From IMG/VR virus record IMGVR_UViG_3300020020_000078, positions 1-44,127 of that record: 44,127 nucleotides of DNA, one strand, 5' to 3'. The notes below the pieces were generated by a model. The model saw only the letters and a program-made list of their open reading frames with translations, did no database searches and had not been told where the DNA came from. This document shows positions 5,777-44,127 of the stretch, piece after piece (positions within the stretch are counted from its first letter, which is position 1; each line of letters opens with the position of its first letter). The translations under genes were made by a program, and so were the position numbers. Source of the stretch: a virus.

Positions 5777-6445
5777 TTATTTTGGGATACATAATAAATC
5801 CAATTGTTCTTCATAAAGAGTCTGCCCGTTATATATATTCCTATACCCGTAACCAAGCTCAGACAGGAAAATATATACATCATTGTTACTAGTTCCATTT
5901 CTTAATAAAGCGTGATTGTTAATTTCTATTACCATTATCGGCTTAAACTTTTTTATCGTTTCAATAGCCCCTTTTAAAATATTGTGTTCAAATCCCTCGG
6001 CATCTATCTTGATAAAGTTTAGTTTATTAAGTTTCAATGAGTCAATAGTAACACACTTAATACCCTTCTTTGCTTTCTCTGCATAGGTCATACCTGCATT
6101 TGTGGCAACGTCTGTAAGTTTAATATTCCCCTTAGTATCACTTACCCCCTCGTTTCTTAGTTCTACATTATCGAAATCAAACATATTGTGTTCTAAACAT
6201 TCGAAAGCAGTAGGGTTGGGCTCGAAAGCTATAACCTTTCCGAACCCTCCTACCTTCTTTGCATAAGCAAATGTCTGATCTCCAATGAAAGCTCCAATAT
6301 CAATTACAGTATCTCCCTCTTTAACATATGATAACATTATAGGAAGAGAATTAGGATCATGATCCAAGCGTCCTTCACTTTCAACCCATTTCGAAATACA
6401 CTCGTCTCCCTCTATTATTGCGATATTTTCTTTAGTTATTTTCAT
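5777..6445 (-). CDS. FkbM-family methyltransferase
   Basis: 222 residues with a SAM-binding motif I (VIDIGAFIGDQT, about residue 47), an acidic motif II (VIAFEPNP) and the FkbM-typical KIDAEGFE block near residue 147. FkbM enzymes methylate sugar hydroxyls or small molecules. It is the last gene of the five-gene glycan cassette, overlapping the upstream gene by 4 nt, so methylation of a virion- or host-surface glycan is the likely role. Confidence 0.85.
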   Translation of the reverse strand: MKITKENIAIIEGDECISKWVESEGRLDHDPNSLPIMLSYVKEGDTVIDIGAFIGDQTFAYAKKVGGFGKVIAFEPNPTAFECLEHNMFDFDNVELRNEGVSDTKGNIKLTDVATNAGMTYAEKAKKGIKCVTIDSLKLNKLNFIKIDAEGFEHNILKGAIETIKKFKPIMVIEINNHALLRNGTSNNDVYIFLSELGYGYRNIYNGQTLYEEQLDLLCIPK

Positions 6446-7149
6446 TTACAAATCTCCTCAATATGTTTTCTAATCTCAGGAGTTACCCCACCCCAGCTCC
6501 AATGCTGGATTAAGAAATTAGGCTCAATCCCAAATTCTGTATCGTGTATATGATAATCATCTTTACAAAATGATTCTGCATACGCTCCTAATACATTGAA
6601 TTCGCTATATGTCCTGTATTTTCGTGCTATTACATGATTCTCTAAAGTCCTATCGTGAATAAGCTCTAAGTAATCTCTTAGGTCTTTTATGGTTTCCGAT
6701 TTATAGATAATAGGCATTCTCCTCATATACTCCCACTCGATCCCCTTAATGTTTAACGATTTCTCAGTTACATCTTTCCAGCAAATAGCCTCCCCAACTT
6801 TAGAGTAATGTGTTTTATAAAGTATAGGCTTACCTTTGAAGAACATCCTTTTAGTTAAATCTACGGGCTCAGTAAACACACAATCAGAATCCACATATAC
6901 CACGTACTCAGAACCGCAATAAGTATCTGCCATTAATTTACTTACTTGCTGACCTAAATAATCATCCTCATAAACCGGACACGTAACAACATACTCTAGG
7001 TTAAAATCCTTTAGTAGGCGTACCTGATTCTCAGGTATACAAACAACGATTCTATTATACCCCGTAACATACTTATGAATTGATTTAAGGCAGTATTTCA
7101 ACCACTCCAAATCGTTCTTATAAGTCCTTATAAAAATCGATATATTCAT
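6442..7149 (-). CDS. Glycosyltransferase-like protein (GT-A fold)
   Basis: 235 residues opening with an FIRTYKNDLEWLKYCLKSI segment, typical of small GT-A family proteins. A D-x-D motif (VYVDSDCVF, about residue 90) can bind the nucleotide-sugar metal. The C-terminal WSWGG segment may form the acceptor site. It overlaps both neighbours by 4 nt in the glycan cassette. The sugar donor cannot be predicted. Confidence 0.7.
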   Translation of the reverse strand: MNISIFIRTYKNDLEWLKYCLKSIHKYVTGYNRIVVCIPENQVRLLKDFNLEYVVTCPVYEDDYLGQQVSKLMADTYCGSEYVVYVDSDCVFTEPVDLTKRMFFKGKPILYKTHYSKVGEAICWKDVTEKSLNIKGIEWEYMRRMPIIYKSETIKDLRDYLELIHDRTLENHVIARKYRTYSEFNVLGAYAESFCKDDYHIHDTEFGIEPNFLIQHWSWGGVTPEIRKHIEEICK

Positions 7150-7697
7150 ATTGGATAAATATAAATTATTCCCCTATTAGCACCGTTTGCCTCTTCATTG
7201 TAATGATAACCGAACCCATCTTTGTAAATTTCAAATAGTTGATCCTCTATCTCTTCAAACTTTAATTCGTAATCGTAAGCATCAAAACCAAAATCCTTTC
7301 CAGGAACTTTAAAATCATGTATTACAATACATACATTTCTATGGTTGTGATCTCTTATTATTTCCAGCTCATTCTTTAAAGGGCATCCACCAACATTACA
7401 TCCGTGAGCATCTAAATAATAAAGAACATTATCAGTATTAAACTCTGTTAATAACTCCTCTGATTTCCCATCCACAAAAGTTACATTATCAGAATCAACG
7501 TTGCTTTTTGCAATTTCCAAGTATTCACTATCTGCCTCGATTGTAATAACCCTTTCAAATATTTCAGCAAGTGCCTTTGTGGTTGCACCGTACTGAGTCC
7601 CGGTTTCAATACAGTTTTTTATCTTAAACTTATCTCTAAGTTTTTCAATCTCTGCCCTTATAAATGTATCTCCCTCAAAAGGTAATTGCCCGTTCAT
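7146..7697 (-). CDS. Class I SAM-dependent methyltransferase
   Basis: 183 residues. IETGTQYGATTKALAE (about residue 31) is a glycine-rich SAM motif and ITIEADSEY supplies the acidic ribose-binding residue. YYLDAHGC is the motif near the active site, and the pattern resembles sugar O-methyltransferases of the TylF/MycE type. It lies between two glycosyltransferase genes with start-stop overlaps, so a sugar substrate is inferred. Confidence 0.7.
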   Translation of the reverse strand: MNGQLPFEGDTFIRAEIEKLRDKFKIKNCIETGTQYGATTKALAEIFERVITIEADSEYLEIAKSNVDSDNVTFVDGKSEELLTEFNTDNVLYYLDAHGCNVGGCPLKNELEIIRDHNHRNVCIVIHDFKVPGKDFGFDAYDYELKFEEIEDQLFEIYKDGFGYHYNEEANGANRGIIYIYPI

Positions 7698-8389
7698 TAT
7701 ACTAAATGCTGTTTAATGTGTCTGTAAACCATTCCTGTTACCTGTCCCACGTTCTGAAACTTTAGCATTCCAATCTCTGCCCTGAATATTGTTGCCGTTC
7801 TAATCCAATTATCCTTTGAGTATTGAGCATTATGTTTTTTGTGAAATATATAAGGCTCCTTAGAACGAATAATCTTAACCCCGTTAACCGATGCTGTATA
7901 AGGGAGCCAGTAATCCCAATGACACTGCCCCAAACAAAGTAAAGTCTGAGGGAAAGAATCTAAATGCTTTTCATTAATAAAGAACCCGTCAAATCCCTCC
8001 TCATAAATCTTTGCCTTAGTTATATCCTCTTCATAATCCAATCGATTCATTATTATTACACCCTCCTCAGAAAGATCTTTTAGTCTTTGGGTATAATTAC
8101 CAACATCACTAATAATAATATCAGAGTTAATAATTAATGAGTGTTTACTCTTAATCTCTTTTAGATAGTCAATAATTGCACTTACAATCACGTATGGCTT
8201 ACCGAATATCTTTTTGTTATGTCTTTGAGTGCTTACAAACTTAACGCCTGTAAAGCCCTGTAATGATTCTATTTCCTCTGGAGCATTAAGAGAAACAACT
8301 TCATACCCTGCATTTTTCCAACTCTCTATTGCTATGAGTTGGTTTTCAAAGTTCTTATGCCCCGGAGCTATGCTAGTAATAGCTATCAT
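7697..8389 (-). CDS. Glycosyltransferase-like protein
   Basis: 230 residues. A Rossmann-like start (IAITSIAPGHKNFENQ) is followed by SLIINSDIII near residue 88, where N-S-D can serve as the metal-binding D-x-D equivalent. A CHWDYWLPY stretch near residue 157 is consistent with an acceptor loop. It overlaps the upstream gene by 4 nt and the downstream gene by 1 nt in the same cassette. The family is uncertain. Confidence 0.6.
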   Translation of the reverse strand: MIAITSIAPGHKNFENQLIAIESWKNAGYEVVSLNAPEEIESLQGFTGVKFVSTQRHNKKIFGKPYVIVSAIIDYLKEIKSKHSLIINSDIIISDVGNYTQRLKDLSEEGVIIMNRLDYEEDITKAKIYEEGFDGFFINEKHLDSFPQTLLCLGQCHWDYWLPYTASVNGVKIIRSKEPYIFHKKHNAQYSKDNWIRTATIFRAEIGMLKFQNVGQVTGMVYRHIKQHLV

Positions 8390-9228
8390 TTAATATTTAT
8401 GAATTTATTTTTATATAATTGATCCACTTTAAACCAGTGATTAATCCCTATTGGATTTAGAATACTGCTCATTATTCTATCGTATAATTTCAATGCGTAC
8501 GGCTTTACATTAGTGCCTCCATACATTGACAGTACATAGAAATCATTTAATATTTCCGTTACCGATGCCACTCTCTCAGGAAAGAATACAGGCCTTAATT
8601 CTAATAGCGTGATTCCTAGTTGTGCCATAGTAACCGAGTAATAAAGCTCGTCTGGATGCTGTTTACTCTTGCCCCACATCTCTTTATAATCTTTCGGCTC
8701 TAGTTTATTACTATAATTCGCTTTTAAACATCTAAAGAAATCTTTAGCTCCCTTAGTGAAATAAATAATTGACGTTTGACACGTAGTAAATAAATTACCT
8801 TCTGGTATCTGAAAATGATTATATAATAATTCATTCTTTGCCCACATATAATTTATACCATCGTCTCCCTTTTTACCTGTTCCCATTGGTTGAGTCCAGA
8901 ATTCAAAGTCCTCTAGTTTCTTAAATAGATCGTCCGGGCTTCTTAACATCACCCCGTCTACATCTAAATACAAAGTCTTATCGAAAGGGCTTCTTTCGAA
9001 TAGCTTTATCTTAGCAATACAATTATCAATCTTACCCTGATCGTTCTTTTCAAAGTCTATTATCTCATAAGATGAGAAACACGACATATCAATTCCTGAA
9101 ACACTTTCAGAGTCACAAATTAAATGGATAGGCAACTCACTATAATGACGTATTGAATGCGCCATATTAAACGCAAACTTCCCATAAGTCCGGGAATTAA
9201 AACACATCAACAGAATTCCTTTCTTCAT
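8386..9228 (-). CDS. Glycosyltransferase (GT8-like)
   Basis: 280 residues. The start (GILLMCFNSRTYGKFAFNMA) and a clear D-x-D motif (TLYLDVDGVM near residue 96) match GT-A retaining-type enzymes. HPDELYYSVTMAQLG (about residue 191) is the conserved late acidic region. It is the first gene of the glycan cassette, directly after the strong terminator at 9233-9264. A promoter for the cassette is not obvious, so it may depend on partial read-through. Confidence 0.75.
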   Translation of the reverse strand: MKKGILLMCFNSRTYGKFAFNMAHSIRHYSELPIHLICDSESVSGIDMSCFSSYEIIDFEKNDQGKIDNCIAKIKLFERSPFDKTLYLDVDGVMLRSPDDLFKKLEDFEFWTQPMGTGKKGDDGINYMWAKNELLYNHFQIPEGNLFTTCQTSIIYFTKGAKDFFRCLKANYSNKLEPKDYKEMWGKSKQHPDELYYSVTMAQLGITLLELRPVFFPERVASVTEILNDFYVLSMYGGTNVKPYALKLYDRIMSSILNPIGINHWFKVDQLYKNKFINIK

Positions 9229-9273: not shown

Positions 9274-9813
9274 CTATACAAATATACCCTCTGGAGCTTC
9301 GTGTAGTACCGGAAATGAATCCGCTACTGACTGCGACCATTTGGCAGTTACTAAATAGTTTTGTTTTTCTTTATTGGATTTCGGAATAACCAAACGAGAA
9401 TTAAAGTTTACACCTGTTTCTACTACCCTTAACATCTCCTCTTCGCACATATAAAATATAAGTCCTGCGAATTGAGAGAGATTTAGTTTTCTATAAAACT
9501 CATCGTTAACAGCGTTGACGTTAAAGTCAGTTGTTTCGAGAGTATAGTCAAACCCGTCAACAATAGTTTCAGCACCACACGCCAAAGGGTTTTCGCCTTC
9601 AACTGGTGAAGGTTCAGGTAATTCAGCTTTAATGTTTTTGATTATTTTTAAAGTTCCTGCATCGATCGCAGCTTGTAACTGTGTGCCATTAGCGAAATCT
9701 GTAATGTCATGACCAGTTTTAAGAATACCTAGTGCGCCAATGCCTCCTTTTTGATAGTAACAATCATTCTTTTCGTGATCGTCAAGATCTTCGAAACTAC
9801 ATATCTGAGACAT
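9274..9813 (-). CDS. Probable abundant virion protein, unknown function
   Basis: 179 residues, acidic, soluble, no signal peptide, mixed alpha/beta. It forms its own transcription unit: a promoter-like box (9892-9899), the shared leader element (9818-9875) also found before the capsid gene, and a perfect terminator after it. This suggests high late expression. A tail-tube or decoration protein fits, because no other tail-tube gene was recognised, but sequence motifs do not prove it. Confidence 0.6.
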   Translation of the reverse strand: MSQICSFEDLDDHEKNDCYYQKGGIGALGILKTGHDITDFANGTQLQAAIDAGTLKIIKNIKAELPEPSPVEGENPLACGAETIVDGFDYTLETTDFNVNAVNDEFYRKLNLSQFAGLIFYMCEEEMLRVVETGVNFNSRLVIPKSNKEKQNYLVTAKWSQSVADSFPVLHEAPEGIFV

Positions 9814-9899: not shown

Positions 9900-9952
9900 G
9901 AAATTGTACGATAAAATCATACAATAGGTATAATTTAATTTTACTAAATTAC

Positions 9953-9983
9953 TTTGTTTATAATGTAACAATCGTTACATTTG
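9953..9983 (+). promoter_or_regulatory. Bacteroidota-type promoter overlapping a perfect palindrome
   Basis: TTTG (9953-9956), 19 bp, TACATTTG (9976-9983) is a textbook match. Inside it a perfect dyad AATGTAAC-AATC-GTTACATT (9962-9981) covers the spacer and most of the -7 box. A repressor bound there would block the promoter. The first ATG is at 9992, so the leader is very short. Confidence 0.8.
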
Positions 9984-9991
9984 AACGTTAT

Positions 9992-10165
9992 ATGACAGGA
10001 GAGCAATTAAAAGCGCTTAGATTAAAGGCAAAGTTGACTCAAGAAAAGTTGGCTTTAGACCTGGATATTAAAAGAGAAATGATTGCACGATGGGAAACCA
10101 CTGGCAGCATAAGTAAAGTATATCAAAAAATATTATCAGATTATTTTAACAAACTGGAGCTATGA
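9992..10165 (+). CDS. Short XRE-family regulator
   Basis: 57 residues, nearly only a helix-turn-helix: LKALRLKAKLTQEKLALDL, then IKREMIARWE as recognition helix. Its stop overlaps the start of the beta-barrel gene (ATGA), so the two are coupled. The palindrome across its own promoter (9962-9981) points to autorepression. No dimerisation or sensor domain is present, so it may act as a simple Cro-like repressor. Confidence 0.75.
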   Translation: MTGEQLKALRLKAKLTQEKLALDLDIKREMIARWETTGSISKVYQKILSDYFNKLEL

Positions 10166-10812
10166 AAACATTATTATTTATTATCCTTTTTATCCCTACG
10201 ATTGCATTTTCTCAAGAGAAGAAAGTTACTTTCGGGATTCAATTAGGTTATTCGAGTTCATGGAGTTCTGAAAAGAGTGAAATCGCTGGGCCTACAAATA
10301 AGCAAATGTCAGATGCCTCATCTATCCTTTTAGGTGGCATAGTTAATTACAAACTTTCTGAGTCTTTTAGCATTCAGACAGAATTGAACTATGTAAAGAA
10401 AGGCTTTAGAAGAGATTTGAGTTATGACGATATAACAACTAAATTTAAGCGTATTCAAGAGTATTCTTTTAATAGATTAGAGGTTCCTGTTCTTGTAAAA
10501 TTAAGTTTTACAAAATCCAAGATGTTATACTTTATGACAGGGGTTTCGCCGAGCTTTAACTTGGCATCTAAATACAATGCTGATATTAATGAAACAAAGC
10601 CAATACCATCTCAAAGTAATATTAGCTTAGATAAAATACCTAATTTGAATTCTTTTGATACTCCAATTGTATTCTCCCTTGGTTTTGAGAGGCCTGTTGG
10701 TAGCTCATTCTTAGGATTACAATTAAGATACAACCAATCCTTAATGAATTACTTTGATAACATTACCTCAAAGGTTTCATCCTTTAATATAATAGCTGGA
10801 ATTAGATTCTAA
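10162..10812 (+). CDS. Outer-membrane beta-barrel protein (PorT/porin-like family)
   Basis: 216 residues with a signal peptide (MKTLLFIILFIPTIAFS, cleavage probably before QEKK). Alternating amphipathic strands follow (VTFGIQLGYSSSW; FSIQTELNYVKKG; GLQLRYNQSLM), ending in Phe (IIAGIRF), the usual final residue of an outer-membrane barrel. About eight strands would fit. It is coupled to an XRE regulator on the strand opposite to the late genes, so it is probably a moron expressed in the lysogen. Alteration of phage receptor or host surface is inferred. Its stop overlaps the convergent tail gene by 4 nt (CTAA). Confidence 0.8.
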   Translation: MKTLLFIILFIPTIAFSQEKKVTFGIQLGYSSSWSSEKSEIAGPTNKQMSDASSILLGGIVNYKLSESFSIQTELNYVKKGFRRDLSYDDITTKFKRIQEYSFNRLEVPVLVKLSFTKSKMLYFMTGVSPSFNLASKYNADINETKPIPSQSNISLDKIPNLNSFDTPIVFSLGFERPVGSSFLGLQLRYNQSLMNYFDNITSKVSSFNIIAGIRF

Positions 10813-11693
10813 CAATTATTATTTCGTAAGAACTGATCTTTAACAACTGTTACCTCAACAGGGGAAAGCTGTGACGACTTCCTCCATTTAGGAGTGTACT
10901 CAGTTTCTTCATTAGTGTATTTCGCCCCGTCGATATAGAAATCATCATGCTCAACGCCTATAGCTAGAGCATCATGGATATATTCAGGGACTTCACCAAC
11001 TGTTAATAGTTCTTCCTTAGATGTTTCGCTCCTTAGTATCGTTCTGTTCCCTGCATTGTCTTTGAATACATTCTTTTCTTTAGAGTAAGACGGTTGCCAT
11101 AGTTTGGCCTTTACCCTTAATTGAGGAGTAAAGTTTAAGTCCTCATAATTAAATCCAAAAGCATTATCGTCATTAGTCCAGCTTAAAAGAAGCGTACATC
11201 CATGAGTTAATTTAAGCTCTATACAGTCAGAAACATAGTCTATCCCATGAGAGAAATAAATCTGATAACAGCCTTCTTCTATTTCTGACCAATCAATTTG
11301 ATATTGGATATTATTATTTGAGGCGGTTACCCCTGTATTGTCTACCTGTTGGTAAACTACATTTCCTGCTAAATCTTTAATGGTTATCAGTGGGATTAAT
11401 CTATAACTAACAGCATCAATACAACCGTCAAAGGTAGCACCCATAAAGAGATCACCTATAAAGTTTATATTACTCGCGGTTGCTATTCCTACGGCTGTGT
11501 ATTGCCCGTCTTCTGTGTATTCTGGTTTACTATCCAAACTATCAACAACAAGTTTCCCCTGAGTCATATTTGATATTGTAAACTCAATAGAAAATAAACT
11601 TCCTACTGTTAATCCAGTTTGGGAAATAACAAACCCTGGTACGCTTGTATTATAGCAAGCTGCCCCGTCAGATTGAATCCATTCGTTCGCCAT
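10809..11693 (-). CDS. Putative tail-associated structural protein
   Basis: 294 residues, beta-rich, with repeated Ser/Thr/Asn and Cys residues (EGCYQIYFSHG, LTHGCTLLLSWTNDD). It is the last gene of the tail operon, after the SprB-repeat protein, where receptor-binding or tail-tip proteins are usually found. No catalytic motif is visible. The structural role is inferred from position. Confidence 0.55.
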   Translation of the reverse strand: MANEWIQSDGAACYNTSVPGFVISQTGLTVGSLFSIEFTISNMTQGKLVVDSLDSKPEYTEDGQYTAVGIATASNINFIGDLFMGATFDGCIDAVSYRLIPLITIKDLAGNVVYQQVDNTGVTASNNNIQYQIDWSEIEEGCYQIYFSHGIDYVSDCIELKLTHGCTLLLSWTNDDNAFGFNYEDLNFTPQLRVKAKLWQPSYSKEKNVFKDNAGNRTILRSETSKEELLTVGEVPEYIHDALAIGVEHDDFYIDGAKYTNEETEYTPKWRKSSQLSPVEVTVVKDQFLRNNNC

Positions 11694-12104: not shown

Positions 12105-12638
12105 TTAAGGTTGTAAATCGTCTAAAGTACAATTGTATAATTCGCCTAGAGTTATCCCATCATCAATTAAGTCTTGAATAGTTGCGCCTGAATATAAACC
12201 GCAAGTAATATTTGTGAAAACGGTTATGCTTATTGATCCCTCGTTTCCTTCTGAGTCTTTAACTGTGATAATGTAAGTACCAGCGCATAAACCTGTGAAA
12301 GTAGCACTACCTCCAAAAGATCCCCCATCAATAGAATAAGTATATCCAGGTACACCTCCAGAAGCAAGTACTTCAATCTCTCCATCACAATCTCCCTCAG
12401 TGCTTTCATTAGTAACATCAACAATACTCACCTCAATAGCTTCGAATATATCCCATCCATCAAGATTACTTTCAAAGTTTCCATTCGTCGCCAAATCGGT
12501 TGAGTTAATCTGAAACTGAGTAGGGTCATTTTGATCTATTAACTGGCAAAAGTTTTGCCCTAGGCAGTCGCAGGAAGTATCAACTTGATTTACATCCTGG
12601 AATCGTATAGGTTGATTATTTATAGGTGTTACGCTCAT
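12105..12638 (-). CDS. Virion protein with a SprB-type repeat domain
   Basis: 177 residues. Residues about 80-142 match the SprB repeat pattern: GxIxVxASGGVPGYTYSIDGG, then FTGLCAGTYIITVKDSEGN. SprB repeats occur in the gliding adhesin SprB and other Bacteroidota surface proteins. Here the domain lies in the tail operon, overlapping the large tail gene by 4 nt, so it probably decorates the tail tip and may contact host surface. The N-terminus is Cys-rich (CDCLGQNFC). Confidence 0.7.
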   Translation of the reverse strand: MSVTPINNQPIRFQDVNQVDTSCDCLGQNFCQLIDQNDPTQFQINSTDLATNGNFESNLDGWDIFEAIEVSIVDVTNESTEGDCDGEIEVLASGGVPGYTYSIDGGSFGGSATFTGLCAGTYIITVKDSEGNEGSISITVFTNITCGLYSGATIQDLIDDGITLGELYNCTLDDLQP

Positions 12639-14854
12639 ACGTATGCTTTTAATAATTTAAATTGGCTTTTGTCTCCAGGCTTATATTTAAACTCTAGGAT
12701 AAATCCTTTTACATGATCCTCATCTGATTCACTCACGTTAAACACACCTTTAGGATTAGCCTCAATAGCTTTAAATTGACTAAATGTAACGGGATACTCA
12801 AATTCTAATATCTCAGGAACCCAGATAGGAGTTGAATCGGTATTGTTCGCGTCATCCCATTGAATATTCTGTCCCTCGGAAAGTTCTTCATTGTCCCAAT
12901 TTCCCGGACATGAATCATTATCAAATTCAGAGGTCATTTTATAATTTCCCTCTCCAGACATAAACTTAATCTCTCTCCCTATATTCTTTATTAATCCAGC
13001 ATCTAACACGGGACTCCATCTTAATAAATTCCTCGCTGGGCTTATCCTTAAATTATATGAAGTCTCAGGACTGATTACATTTTGAACATCTACATAGTTC
13101 TCATCCTTTTCAGCCGATAATAAATCCTCAGTAGTACATACAATAAAGTTTTCCTCGTCGAATTCTGAGTCCTCTGTAAATGTTTCTCCAAATTGTTTCC
13201 TCCTGGTAACCTCTAGCATATACCCAGACGCAACCAATTGAGAAATTAAATCAAGCTCATTATTTACGCTCTTAATGCCAGTGTCAAATTCTCTCTTAGA
13301 ATTAAATTCATCCAATCCGTTAGCATACTCTATTTGCCATTTATCATAACCTACTTTAACACGGTTGTAATAATATTCAGGGGCTTCTGATCTTCTTATA
13401 TGAGGTACATTATTAAGCGTTAGCATTACCGTGTTAACATCATAGAAATATTCCTTTTTGTCTACTACAATATAATAATCATCCCCGCTTTTCTCTATTC
13501 CCATTCCTAGATTATCAATAGGATTAAATCCTTTGAAGTAATCATTCATTGACATTCGTATAGTTCTGGCATCCTCTCCAGTAGTAGGAAAACCCCTAAT
13601 CATAAATCCATTTGTAAGGGCCACGTAAGACCCACAACCATTAGTTATATAAGGGAACGGCTCTGAATTAGTACGTCCAAAGTAATTGCTTCTAAACGAA
13701 TCTAATTGATTTGTAATAACCCTTGATATGTGCGCCCCTGCTTCAAACTTTGCAAACGCTTTACATTCCGTTTCAGGATATGTACTTTCCTCTGTTAGGG
13801 TAACCGTTGAATCAGGATCAAACTCAATCAGCATACTAGGAACAGGCCCGCTTGTGCTTGGAAATGTTATATTGAAATAAATATACATATAACTATCCAC
13901 TGGCATGTTAAAGGTATTCGTATAGGATAAATTATGTGATACGTTTTGCGGATTAATTTCATCTAAACCAAAGAATGCTAACTCAGAACTGGATATTGTT
14001 GACCCCCCTGAATCTTTAGTAATTATTAAAAGCTGAAACGCAACTGCAAACCATGTAGCATCAAATATTAAATTAAGATCAACATCTATAGCCCTTGAGC
14101 TTACACCTGAAGGATAAAAAGCCCCTGAATAAAGTATCGGATAATCTAATCCTGGCTCAAAGTCTACTGGTTCCCGTGTCTCGTCTAATTCATATTTAAC
14201 TGGAGCCGTTAAAGGATAAGCGAATTTATCACCAGTAGATAATCCCGGCCCTGGGTATCTATCTAATTCTAATCGTGAGGCATCCTGAATAAACTCCGTG
14301 TTAACTATTATTTTCTTTGAATGTAGTGTAAGATCATACGGCCCGTAAGTATAAGGACTTATTGCAGTGCCGTCCATTGTCTCAGTGGCAAACAAATCGA
14401 CCTTGGTGTCTAATCTATTTTTAACTGTCTCAAGTATTCCCCTCGGTTTAATATTAACCTTTGTGAATTCGTCCTGCGATTCCCAGGTTATCATTTCCAA
14501 CTCCCCTAAATAAAATTCTTGGAAATCCTCGTCGCAAGTTCCACCTATGAAAGATCCGTAATCATCTGAATAATCAATCGAATAGTCGGGAGATTCCTCT
14601 CCCTCTGCACATCCACAAAATGCCTCTATAGTGATTAATATTTGAGCGTCTACTCCTTGAGTCTCATGTATTGAATCAATAAACTCTTTCCCAGCTCCAT
14701 TACAATAAAACTCTAATTTAACATCTGTCTCAATAGTAAGGCCGTGATTCTCCCCCCGCTTAATTGTTGGGGAAATATCATCAATACCTTTAGGCATCTT
14801 TGTAAGTATCAAAGAACCTAAAACAGAATCAGTAAGAGTTACACGATACCTCAT
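12635..14854 (-). CDS. Large tail/baseplate protein (distal tail or tail-spike-like)
   Basis: 739 residues directly after the tape measure gene, overlapping it by 4 nt. It starts with a compact beta domain (YRVTLTDSVLGSLIL) and is beta-rich throughout, with an early Cys cluster (CGCAEGEESPDY near residue 95). Position and size fit a distal tail/tail-hub component that adsorbs to the host. No peptidase or glycosidase motif is seen. Confidence 0.6.
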   Translation of the reverse strand: MRYRVTLTDSVLGSLILTKMPKGIDDISPTIKRGENHGLTIETDVKLEFYCNGAGKEFIDSIHETQGVDAQILITIEAFCGCAEGEESPDYSIDYSDDYGSFIGGTCDEDFQEFYLGELEMITWESQDEFTKVNIKPRGILETVKNRLDTKVDLFATETMDGTAISPYTYGPYDLTLHSKKIIVNTEFIQDASRLELDRYPGPGLSTGDKFAYPLTAPVKYELDETREPVDFEPGLDYPILYSGAFYPSGVSSRAIDVDLNLIFDATWFAVAFQLLIITKDSGGSTISSSELAFFGLDEINPQNVSHNLSYTNTFNMPVDSYMYIYFNITFPSTSGPVPSMLIEFDPDSTVTLTEESTYPETECKAFAKFEAGAHISRVITNQLDSFRSNYFGRTNSEPFPYITNGCGSYVALTNGFMIRGFPTTGEDARTIRMSMNDYFKGFNPIDNLGMGIEKSGDDYYIVVDKKEYFYDVNTVMLTLNNVPHIRRSEAPEYYYNRVKVGYDKWQIEYANGLDEFNSKREFDTGIKSVNNELDLISQLVASGYMLEVTRRKQFGETFTEDSEFDEENFIVCTTEDLLSAEKDENYVDVQNVISPETSYNLRISPARNLLRWSPVLDAGLIKNIGREIKFMSGEGNYKMTSEFDNDSCPGNWDNEELSEGQNIQWDDANNTDSTPIWVPEILEFEYPVTFSQFKAIEANPKGVFNVSESDEDHVKGFILEFKYKPGDKSQFKLLKAYV

Positions 14855-29320: not shown

Positions 29321-29348
29321 AGTTTTAAAAGTTAGTGTTAAAAATAAA

Positions 29349-29424
29349 GAGGAGAGATTGGGTTCGAACCAATGACCTATACAGTCGTTTACACTGAATC
29401 TCTCTACCGCTGAGCTACTCTCCT
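29349..29424 (-). tRNA. tRNA with extended anticodon stem (isotype uncertain)
   Basis: The minus-strand cloverleaf has a 7-bp acceptor (AGGAGAG / CTCTCCT, extended to 8 bp by an extra G-C), D-arm GCTC-AGCGGTA-GAGA and T-arm ATTGG-TTCGAAC-CCAAT with all pairs. The anticodon arm is odd: ATTCAGT pairs with ACTGTAT over 7 bp (one T-T mismatch) with loop GTAAACG, giving anticodon AAA. Canonical numbering instead gives GTA (Tyr) with weak pairing. No CCA is encoded. It is a real tRNA-like gene, but the specificity is open. Confidence 0.75.
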
Positions 29425-29452
29425 CTTATTCCCTTTATATTTTTAAATATTT

Positions 29453-33551: not shown

Positions 33552-33624
33552 TCACCGCATATAGCCAGCTAATCACCGCAATTATAGCGGTCATTAATAA
33601 ATAAAACTTCCATTCTCTTCTCAT
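33535..33624 (-). CDS. Tiny membrane protein after the integrase
   Basis: 29 residues, one hydrophobic helix (FYLLMTAIIAVISWLYAVI). It starts in an ATGA overlap with the integrase stop, which supports coupling. It contains two 11-bp direct repeats (33549-33559 and 33570-33580), seen as [IY]AVI in the protein. Overlaps the end of the XRE gene antisense. Confidence 0.4.
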   Translation of the reverse strand: MRREWKFYLLMTAIIAVISWLYAVINGSY

Positions 33625-34763
33625 AATTGCGGGAGGTTAAAAACTATTTTTTGTTTCATCTGCTCTAGTATTCTAGCATAGTGCTTTTCAGTGGTGCTTA
33701 CATTAGAGTGCCCTAATAGTTGAGATATTTCATAAAGGTTAGCTCCATTTAATCCAAGGGTGATTGCGAATGTGTGCCTGAAGTCGTGCATGGTGAAATT
33801 CTCTTCAGGTGCGCCCCGTGGTGTTATTCCTGCATTTAGAAACCATATCACCATATTTTTATTAGTTATACCATTGTTTTTAAAGCCTTCAAATACCAAA
33901 TCATCAGGAAGACCCGGCTCTCCCAACATATCCATTATATCTTGTCTAAAGTGAATAGTGTATGGCTTCTCTGTTTTTTGTTGCTTTAGAACCACGCGAT
34001 ACATATCATCTACCGTCTGGATTTGCTTCCATTTAAAAGCCTTTAAATCCCCGGATCTCATTCCTGTTTGAGATGCAAATAGCCCCACTCGTTTTAATAT
34101 CGGACACGGACACTTTGCAGCCTTTAGCTTCTGAAGGTCTTCATGAAAAATATAATTAACAACCGTTCCATCCATTGAGATTGTTTCTACAGCATCACAT
34201 GGGTTACTATCCATATAATCATGCTTTACCGCTAATGTAAGAAAGGAAGTAAACCATTGATAGTAGACAGACGCTGTATTATGCCCATAGCCGGCTTCTA
34301 GCATCTTATTCCTAAAGTCCCTTACAAAGACCTTATCAATATCCCTTAACCTTACCTTATTCAAATCTACAACATTCTCACAGATTGATTTCATGGCATC
34401 CTCATAGGCTCTGATCGTAGTTAATCTTTTCGGTTTCCCGTTCTTTTTGGGTAACTTCTTAATAAAATGAAAGAAACTCATAAAGTCAACATTTGCAATC
34501 TTAGCCTGTATTTGGGTTTTATCGCTAAGTAATTCAGCATCTTTTAAACTTAGTTTCTTTTTTGCTTTTTTAATTATAATTTCGTTGTGTTGCTTCTCTT
34601 CCTGAGTTTTGGGTTTAGCATAAATTCGATCTGGTTGGAATTCAAAACCACGCTCTTTTCCAGAACCCCAATCCAGGTATAAAGTAATGTATTCGCCTGT
34701 TGTGTTGAATCGGCCCCTGAGAGTAGTTTTGGTGGCCTTTGTGATAACAAAAGTTTTTGACAT
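33621..34763 (-). CDS. Tyrosine recombinase / integrase
   Basis: 380 residues. An N-terminal arm-binding-like part (1-80), a SAM-like core-binding domain (about 90-185) and the catalytic domain: R in TGMRSGDLKAFKW, K in QKTEKPYTI, HDFRHTFAI (HxxR), GHSNVSTTEKHYA (H and nucleophile Y). It belongs to the Bacteroidota phage/transposon integrase type. It integrates the phage at an attB that cannot be identified from this window. Confidence 0.9.
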   Translation of the reverse strand: MSKTFVITKATKTTLRGRFNTTGEYITLYLDWGSGKERGFEFQPDRIYAKPKTQEEKQHNEIIIKKAKKKLSLKDAELLSDKTQIQAKIANVDFMSFFHFIKKLPKKNGKPKRLTTIRAYEDAMKSICENVVDLNKVRLRDIDKVFVRDFRNKMLEAGYGHNTASVYYQWFTSFLTLAVKHDYMDSNPCDAVETISMDGTVVNYIFHEDLQKLKAAKCPCPILKRVGLFASQTGMRSGDLKAFKWKQIQTVDDMYRVVLKQQKTEKPYTIHFRQDIMDMLGEPGLPDDLVFEGFKNNGITNKNMVIWFLNAGITPRGAPEENFTMHDFRHTFAITLGLNGANLYEISQLLGHSNVSTTEKHYARILEQMKQKIVFNLPQL

Positions 34764-34779
34764 TATGATAGATTGATTG

Positions 34780-34977
34780 CTGTAACTAAGTTACAGTGTT
34801 AGTTACAATTATCATAACTTTTCATTACTTTTCAATACCTGTCACTACATATCAATACACCTAAAAACCCTTAAATTTAAGGAATAGGGCAAATTGAAGA
34901 AAAAACAAATAGTTGAGATAATTTGTAACTATAATTTTTTAGCATTGATTATCATATAGTTACGACTGATTAGTTAC
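34780..34977. promoter_or_regulatory. Candidate attP region with arm-type sites
   Basis: Repeats of TAGTTAC/GTAACTA: a palindrome CTGTAAC-TAA-GTTACAG (34780-34796), then copies at 34800-34806, 34925-34931, 34957-34963 and 34971-34977. ACTTTTCA repeats (two in tandem near 34817-34833) and two TCAATAC motifs 20 bp apart lie between. The array next to the integrase start is what arm-binding sites of tyrosine integrases look like. The crossover core was not identified. Confidence 0.6.
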
Positions 34978-34988
34978 ATACTAGCAAC

Positions 34989-43986: not shown

Positions 43987-44031
43987 GCAACTTGTGTAAT
44001 CAAAATATTATGCCCTTTGATGAGGCAACTT
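43987..44031 (-). promoter_or_regulatory. Shared leader element, capsid gene copy
   Basis: Minus strand: AAGTTGCC (44031-44024), 9 nt, GGCATAATA (44014-44006), then AAGTTGC (43993-43987). It begins just after the stop of the scaffold-like gene and ends about 50 nt before the capsid ATG. No TAnnTTTG box precedes it, so here it may be within a longer transcript or be a phage-specific promoter. Confidence 0.6.
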
Positions 44032-44127
44032 ACTATTGCGTAGTTATTAGTAATTATCCTTGTGAATTAGCCTTTAGCTTCTCAGCGTGGCTCAATGCAT
44101 TAGGATGTATTTTTCTTCCTGTGTTAG
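44002..44127. repeat. Direct terminal overlap, copy 2
   Basis: Identical to 14-139; marks the closure point of the circular contig. Confidence 0.9.

Follow-up and report, generated by a model that had tools for sequence, protein, structure and literature searches.

A candidate outer-membrane conversion cassette, comprising an XRE gene and a beta-barrel gene, in the late region of a probable temperate siphovirus

The window analysed here, the 44,127-bp virus contig IMG/VR IMGVR_UViG_3300020020_000078 (positions 1-44,127), carries a small gene pair inserted among its tail genes. An XRE gene is followed by a gene for an outer-membrane beta-barrel protein, and a Bacteroidota-type promoter lies directly upstream. 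The features of the locus, together with two genes that bear on the lifestyle of the phage, are as follows.

9274-9813, minus strand: conserved late gene across the slot from gene 10809-11693; 60-66% identical in the related phages L035 and L036
9891-9898, minus strand: -7 box TATATTTG, probably from the promoter of the divergent gene 9274-9813
9903-9925, strandless: imperfect palindrome ATTGTACGAT-AAA-ATCATACAAT, with 10-nt arms that are 90% complementary, between two divergent promoters
9953-9983, plus strand: Bacteroidota-type promoter of the XRE-barrel operon, TTTG-N19-TACATTTG, by consensus match
9962-9981, strandless: perfect palindrome AATGTAAC-AATC-GTTACATT within the promoter, a presumed operator
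9992-10165, plus strand: 57-aa XRE/HTH_3 DNA-binding protein, a presumed autoregulator (HTH_3 and phrog_7950 matches)
10162-10812, plus strand: 216-aa outer-membrane beta-barrel protein of the OMP_b-brl_2 family (Pfam profile, signal peptide, C-terminal Phe)
10809-11693, minus strand: tail-module gene at the right edge of the cargo, its stop codon overlapping that of the convergent barrel gene; homologues in the related phages L034-L037
32472-32837: CI-like repressor
33621-34763: integrase

The initial annotation had described a Bacteroidota promoter overlapping a perfect palindrome, a 57-residue XRE gene whose stop overlaps the ATG of the next gene, a signal-peptide-bearing outer-membrane barrel, and a pair opposite in strand to the late genes. 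Each of these elements was recovered: promoter and palindrome overlap at 9953-9983 and 9962-9981, the XRE stop codon (TGA, 10163-10165) overlaps the barrel start codon (ATG, 10162-10164), and the genes on either side of the pair are on the minus strand, such that XRE and barrel face against the tail genes. We therefore hold the original observation to be real with very high confidence.

The contig possesses a direct terminal repeat (11-139 = 43999-44127, identical at 128 of 129 positions) and is thus probably a complete genome of about 44.0 kb, circularly assembled. At its ends (1-18/43947-43964), beside the direct repeat, the contig also has a perfect inverted repeat of 18 nt, probably an assembly artefact. 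Terminase, portal, tape-measure and tail proteins are encoded together with an endolysin. Since an integrase, a CI-like repressor and further HTH genes are present, the phage is probably a temperate siphovirus. A flavobacterial (Bacteroidota) host is suggested by the type of promoter and by matches to the tail protein encoded at 12635-14854, which resembles counterparts in Polaribacter, Cellulophaga, Tenacibaculum and Leeuwenhoekiella phages; further resemblances are to a Pseudanabaena phage and a Rhodobacteraceae phage. The genome additionally carries a tRNA-Phe gene (29348-29425, minus strand) with the anticodon AAA, which is unusual for tRNA-Phe.

The cassette promoter comprises TTTG at 9953-9956, a 19-bp spacer and the -7 box TACATTTG at 9976-9983, in agreement with the revised Flavobacterium johnsoniae -7 consensus TAHHTTTG. 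In F. johnsoniae, the -7 box occupies positions -12 to -5 and transcription starts 4-5 nt beyond it (PMC6847099). On this geometry, transcription is predicted to start at 9988 or 9989, leaving a leader of merely 3-4 nt ahead of the ATG at 9992 and placing the palindrome at about -26 to -7, a location at which bound protein would obstruct polymerase. Leaderless mRNAs are few in flavobacteria, amounting to 5.5% in F. psychrophilum (PMC9723704).

By itself, the palindrome is weak evidence of regulation. Palindromes of this kind are no commoner in the window than by chance (9 observed, 8.85 in shuffles), and 7% of shuffled versions of the 178-bp intergenic stretch contain one. About 0.3% of shuffles yield the promoter pattern, and only 3 of 20,000 the promoter with an overlapping palindrome; the combination, directly upstream of a gene, is thus not readily attributed to chance. 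The palindrome has no second copy in the window, even when 3 mismatches are allowed, and in IMG/VR the promoter-palindrome pattern was found at 18 loci, none of which had an XRE gene or barrel downstream. Gene 9274-9813 has a divergent promoter whose upstream part is overlapped by the imperfect palindrome at 9903-9925, so that both divergent promoters carry a palindrome; the imperfect one may represent a second regulatory site.

The XRE protein falls within the HTH_3 family (PF01381) by its profile match over residues 6 to 36 (29.7 bits against a cut-off of 23, 6.5e-7), and it also matches phrog_7950, a transcriptional repressor (1.7e-8). A predicted model of the protein consisted of one long helix and was left unused. 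Other loci retrieved by XRE matches (L002-L004) were ruled out as relatives, their contexts being unrelated. The architecture of the locus leans towards autorepression of the XRE gene through the palindrome at 9962-9981, by a modest balance of probability. XRE proteins are able to activate as well as repress.

A small XRE gene in first position, a promoter palindrome and an overlapping second gene is the layout of type II toxin-antitoxin and restriction-modification control operons, in which the XRE protein restrains a harmful second gene. The best NCBIfam match of the XRE protein is likewise the HTH of the MqsA antitoxin family, at a score far under the cut-off (24.5 of 61.8 bits). The second gene, however, encodes a barrel with a signal peptide in which no toxin or nuclease domain was found, and a control operon of either type is consequently very improbable here.

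The barrel protein aligned to positions 1 to 174 of the 175 in the OMP_b-brl_2 profile (PF13568), scoring 65.3 bits against a cut-off of 27 (9.5e-18). Its translation begins with a hydrophobic signal peptide, ends in Phe and contains no cysteine. The OMP_b-brl_2 family is broad, and its members serve a variety of roles in hosts. A single-sequence AlphaFold2 model had a pLDDT of 29, too low for a reliable fold. No strong match to the barrel was found in PHROGs, and tblastn detected no homologue among 50,697 phage records. Queries with the barrel, XRE, terminase, integrase and tail proteins returned nothing useful as close relatives from IMG/VR and/or GTDB, and PF13568 was absent from all six annotated phages that share the tail protein, four of them flavobacterial. 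The only plasmid match to the barrel, in a Chryseobacterium plasmid, was discounted as weak; three 'phage' scaffolds with OMP_b-brl_2-type barrels that were found through it resemble host fragments, and in none does a small XRE gene precede the barrel.

Four relatives were instead found, first with the portal protein and then with a portal alignment, their portal identities to the window phage being 47% (L035), 41% (L036), 36% (L037) and 35% (L034). The closest found, L035, is IMGVR_UViG_3300017736_001365, a 32-kb record. Gene order is conserved, running from the tape measure through a tail protein, small tail genes and the homologue of gene 10809-11693 to the slot occupied by the cassette, four genes after the tape-measure gene, and then to the homologues of genes 9274-9813 and 8386-9228. 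In L036 the slot is empty, with its flanking genes 108 bp apart. The L034 slot holds an unrelated 399-aa ORF on the same strand as its neighbours, and that of L037 holds four unrelated same-strand ORFs, some of which resemble glycosyl- or methyltransferases by sequence inspection only. The L035 slot is occupied by a 188-aa OMP_b-brl_2 protein that scores 34 bits (cut-off 27) and is encoded in the same direction as the window barrel, the 3' end of its gene similarly overlapping the tail gene; it differs in that no XRE gene accompanies it and in being very divergent. BLASTP between the two barrels gave 24% identity over a short stretch; alignment of the mature proteins gave z = 6.4, with 1 of 1000 shuffles equally good. 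The two are thus remote homologues, and the recurring content of the slot is a barrel rather than the XRE-barrel pairing.

A slot that is empty, differently filled or barrel-bearing in relatives lends good support to the designation of the pair as a moron in the initial annotation. The cassette has a promoter of its own by consensus match (9953-9983) and is missing from the same place in L036, L034 and L037; it is very probably an opposite-strand cargo of this kind. Sequence beside gene 9274-9813 is partly common to the window, L035 and L036, including the -7 box TATATTTG (9898-9891), which is present as an identical CAAATATA in L035 and as a degenerate GAATATAAG in L036, and the left boundary of the cargo is accordingly placed near 9900. 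The right boundary is placed at the stop of the tail gene, 10809.

Other stretches of the late region were also noted. A second opposite-strand cassette lies between head genes at 1327-2985, with a promoter match at 1327-1358 and a small HTH gene at 2145-2441; the corresponding place in L035 has no room for it. Five genes lie among the late genes at 5777-9228, comprising an FkbM-type methyltransferase (5777-6445), a DUF6492 protein (6442-7149), a second methyltransferase-like gene (7146-7697) and two glycosyltransferase-like genes, these last two assigned by inspection. Homologues of three of the five precede the terminase gene in L035.

The cassette might be a passenger, namely a captured host barrel and its regulator, scarcely expressed and of no consequence for the phage. 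The barrel gene has a GC content of 0.316, as against about 0.37-0.38 in most late genes, and no close homologue was found in the collections searched. Furthermore, the cassette is probably crossed by antisense late transcription, because a simple pattern scan, itself a weak method, found no terminator-like site on the plus strand between the barrel and the tail genes. Such a captured passenger is nevertheless unlikely, given that both genes are intact behind a consensus promoter and that in a second phage, L035, the slot is also occupied by a barrel facing the same way.

The records of the four relatives, all of them fragments, yielded no integrase. The L035 record does span the endolysin-to-replication stretch, where the window phage has its integrase. 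Because no integrase was found in this record, barrel activity may extend to every infected cell instead of being confined to lysogens; were L035 strictly lytic, its barrel would have to act during lytic infection, like T5 Llp. XRE control and lysogeny thus appear not to be general to the slot.

We propose that the locus is an outer-membrane conversion cassette in the late region, in which an XRE-repressed barrel changes adsorption, and assign this reading a probability of roughly 0.45. The XRE protein would bind the palindrome as a dimer and block RNA polymerase at its own promoter, such that operon output would stay low and steady. The barrel would be exported and inserted into the outer membrane, and in cells carrying the phage, whether lysogenic or infected, it would alter how this phage or its competitors adsorb. 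The location beside the tail-tip genes and the divergence of the two barrels fit a receptor-linked role. The presence of a very different barrel at this place in a related phage makes it probable that the slot serves to alter the surface of the cell the phage occupies. That the barrel affects phage adsorption in particular is a tentative proposal, with somewhat less than even prospects. Expression in the lysogen and superinfection exclusion, both envisaged in the initial annotation, are hypotheses likewise.

Several enterobacterial phage products offer precedents. Lambda Lom is likewise a phage outer-membrane barrel encoded right after tail-tip genes, lom lying between J and orf-401. It belongs to a different barrel family, as Ail/Lom was absent among the Pfam matches of the window barrel at E values up to 10; moreover, lambda lom is on the late-gene strand and has no XRE partner. 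T5 Llp and the Cor proteins of phi80 and N15, which serve superinfection exclusion, are small outer-membrane-associated phage products that act on adsorption. Cor inactivates FhuA (PMC11436027), while llp adjoins the receptor-binding gene pb5 and Llp acts during lytic infection (PMC9586334). Llp and T1-type Cor are lipoproteins, however, whereas the window product is a barrel that, having no cysteine, lacks the lipidated residue of their signal. Lysogens of phage PA-2 offer a further precedent, their receptor porin being replaced by a barrel of the phage's own, the Lc/NmpC protein; it differs in being a large trimeric porin of an E. coli phage, unrelated to OMP_b-brl_2. On the features compared, the cassette would therefore stand outside the Lom, Cor/Llp and toxin-antitoxin families and would be analogous to Lom, Cor and Llp in role or position.

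The lambda precedent also lends itself to lysogenic conversion in which adsorption is uninvolved and the barrel confers a surface trait such as adhesion, uptake or resistance to stress or predators, as proposed for Lom. The similar placement of lom after the tail-tip gene J is consistent with this, as are the integrase and repressors that suggest a temperate window phage. In Phi24B, the Lom orthologue reaches comparable expression levels in lysogens and upon induction, independently of the regulatory state of the phage (PMC3342100). A benefit to lysogens would, however, provide no obvious shared reason for the barrel of L035, in whose incomplete record no integrase was detectable, and we consider a surface trait of this kind rather doubtful. 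Taking together the position, the divergence of the barrels and the Llp, Cor and lom precedents, altered adsorption is our leading idea and a Lom-like host trait the next.

The active part of the cassette might alternatively be the XRE protein, its target in trans being either a host surface gene or the phage integrase region, with the barrel replacing or complementing the host protein. Just ahead of the integrase gene, at 34781-34795, there is another TGTAAC...GTTACA palindrome, and two such sites are present where 0.03 would be expected. Late-region moron regulators of host genes are also known: P22 pid resembles the cassette as a small late-region locus opposite to its neighbours that acts on the host, but its product is a single small protein, not a barrel, and relieves the repression of a host operon (PMC3573128). 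The half-sites beside the integrase gene are spaced by 3 nt instead of 4, though, and the L035 barrel has no XRE gene. The integrase-side palindrome, moreover, belongs to a cluster of TGTAAC/GTTACA sites (34781-34978) with TTAGTTACA repeats (34799-34807 and 34970-34978). This cluster looks like integrase arm sites at attP that have a half-site in common with the XRE operator. A link between the two palindromes was accordingly set aside, and a trans-acting XRE protein appears unlikely.

To return to altered adsorption, a broader and decidedly speculative possibility is that a group of uncultivated Bacteroidota siphoviruses keeps, next to the tail-tip genes, a dedicated opposite-strand slot for swappable barrels that change receptor access, in lytic and lysogenic members alike, with the XRE gene as an add-on in temperate ones. 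If true, such interchangeable barrels would constitute a barrel-based exclusion system separate from Lom, Cor and Llp. Cargo of this type could be found by position, on the opposite strand beside tail-tip genes, where sequence similarity fails. The phage outer-membrane and exclusion proteins compared here all come from phages of enterobacteria. A slot for barrels that related Bacteroidota phages have in common would, if borne out, offer a concrete handle on how such phages remodel the surface of their hosts and keep competitors out.
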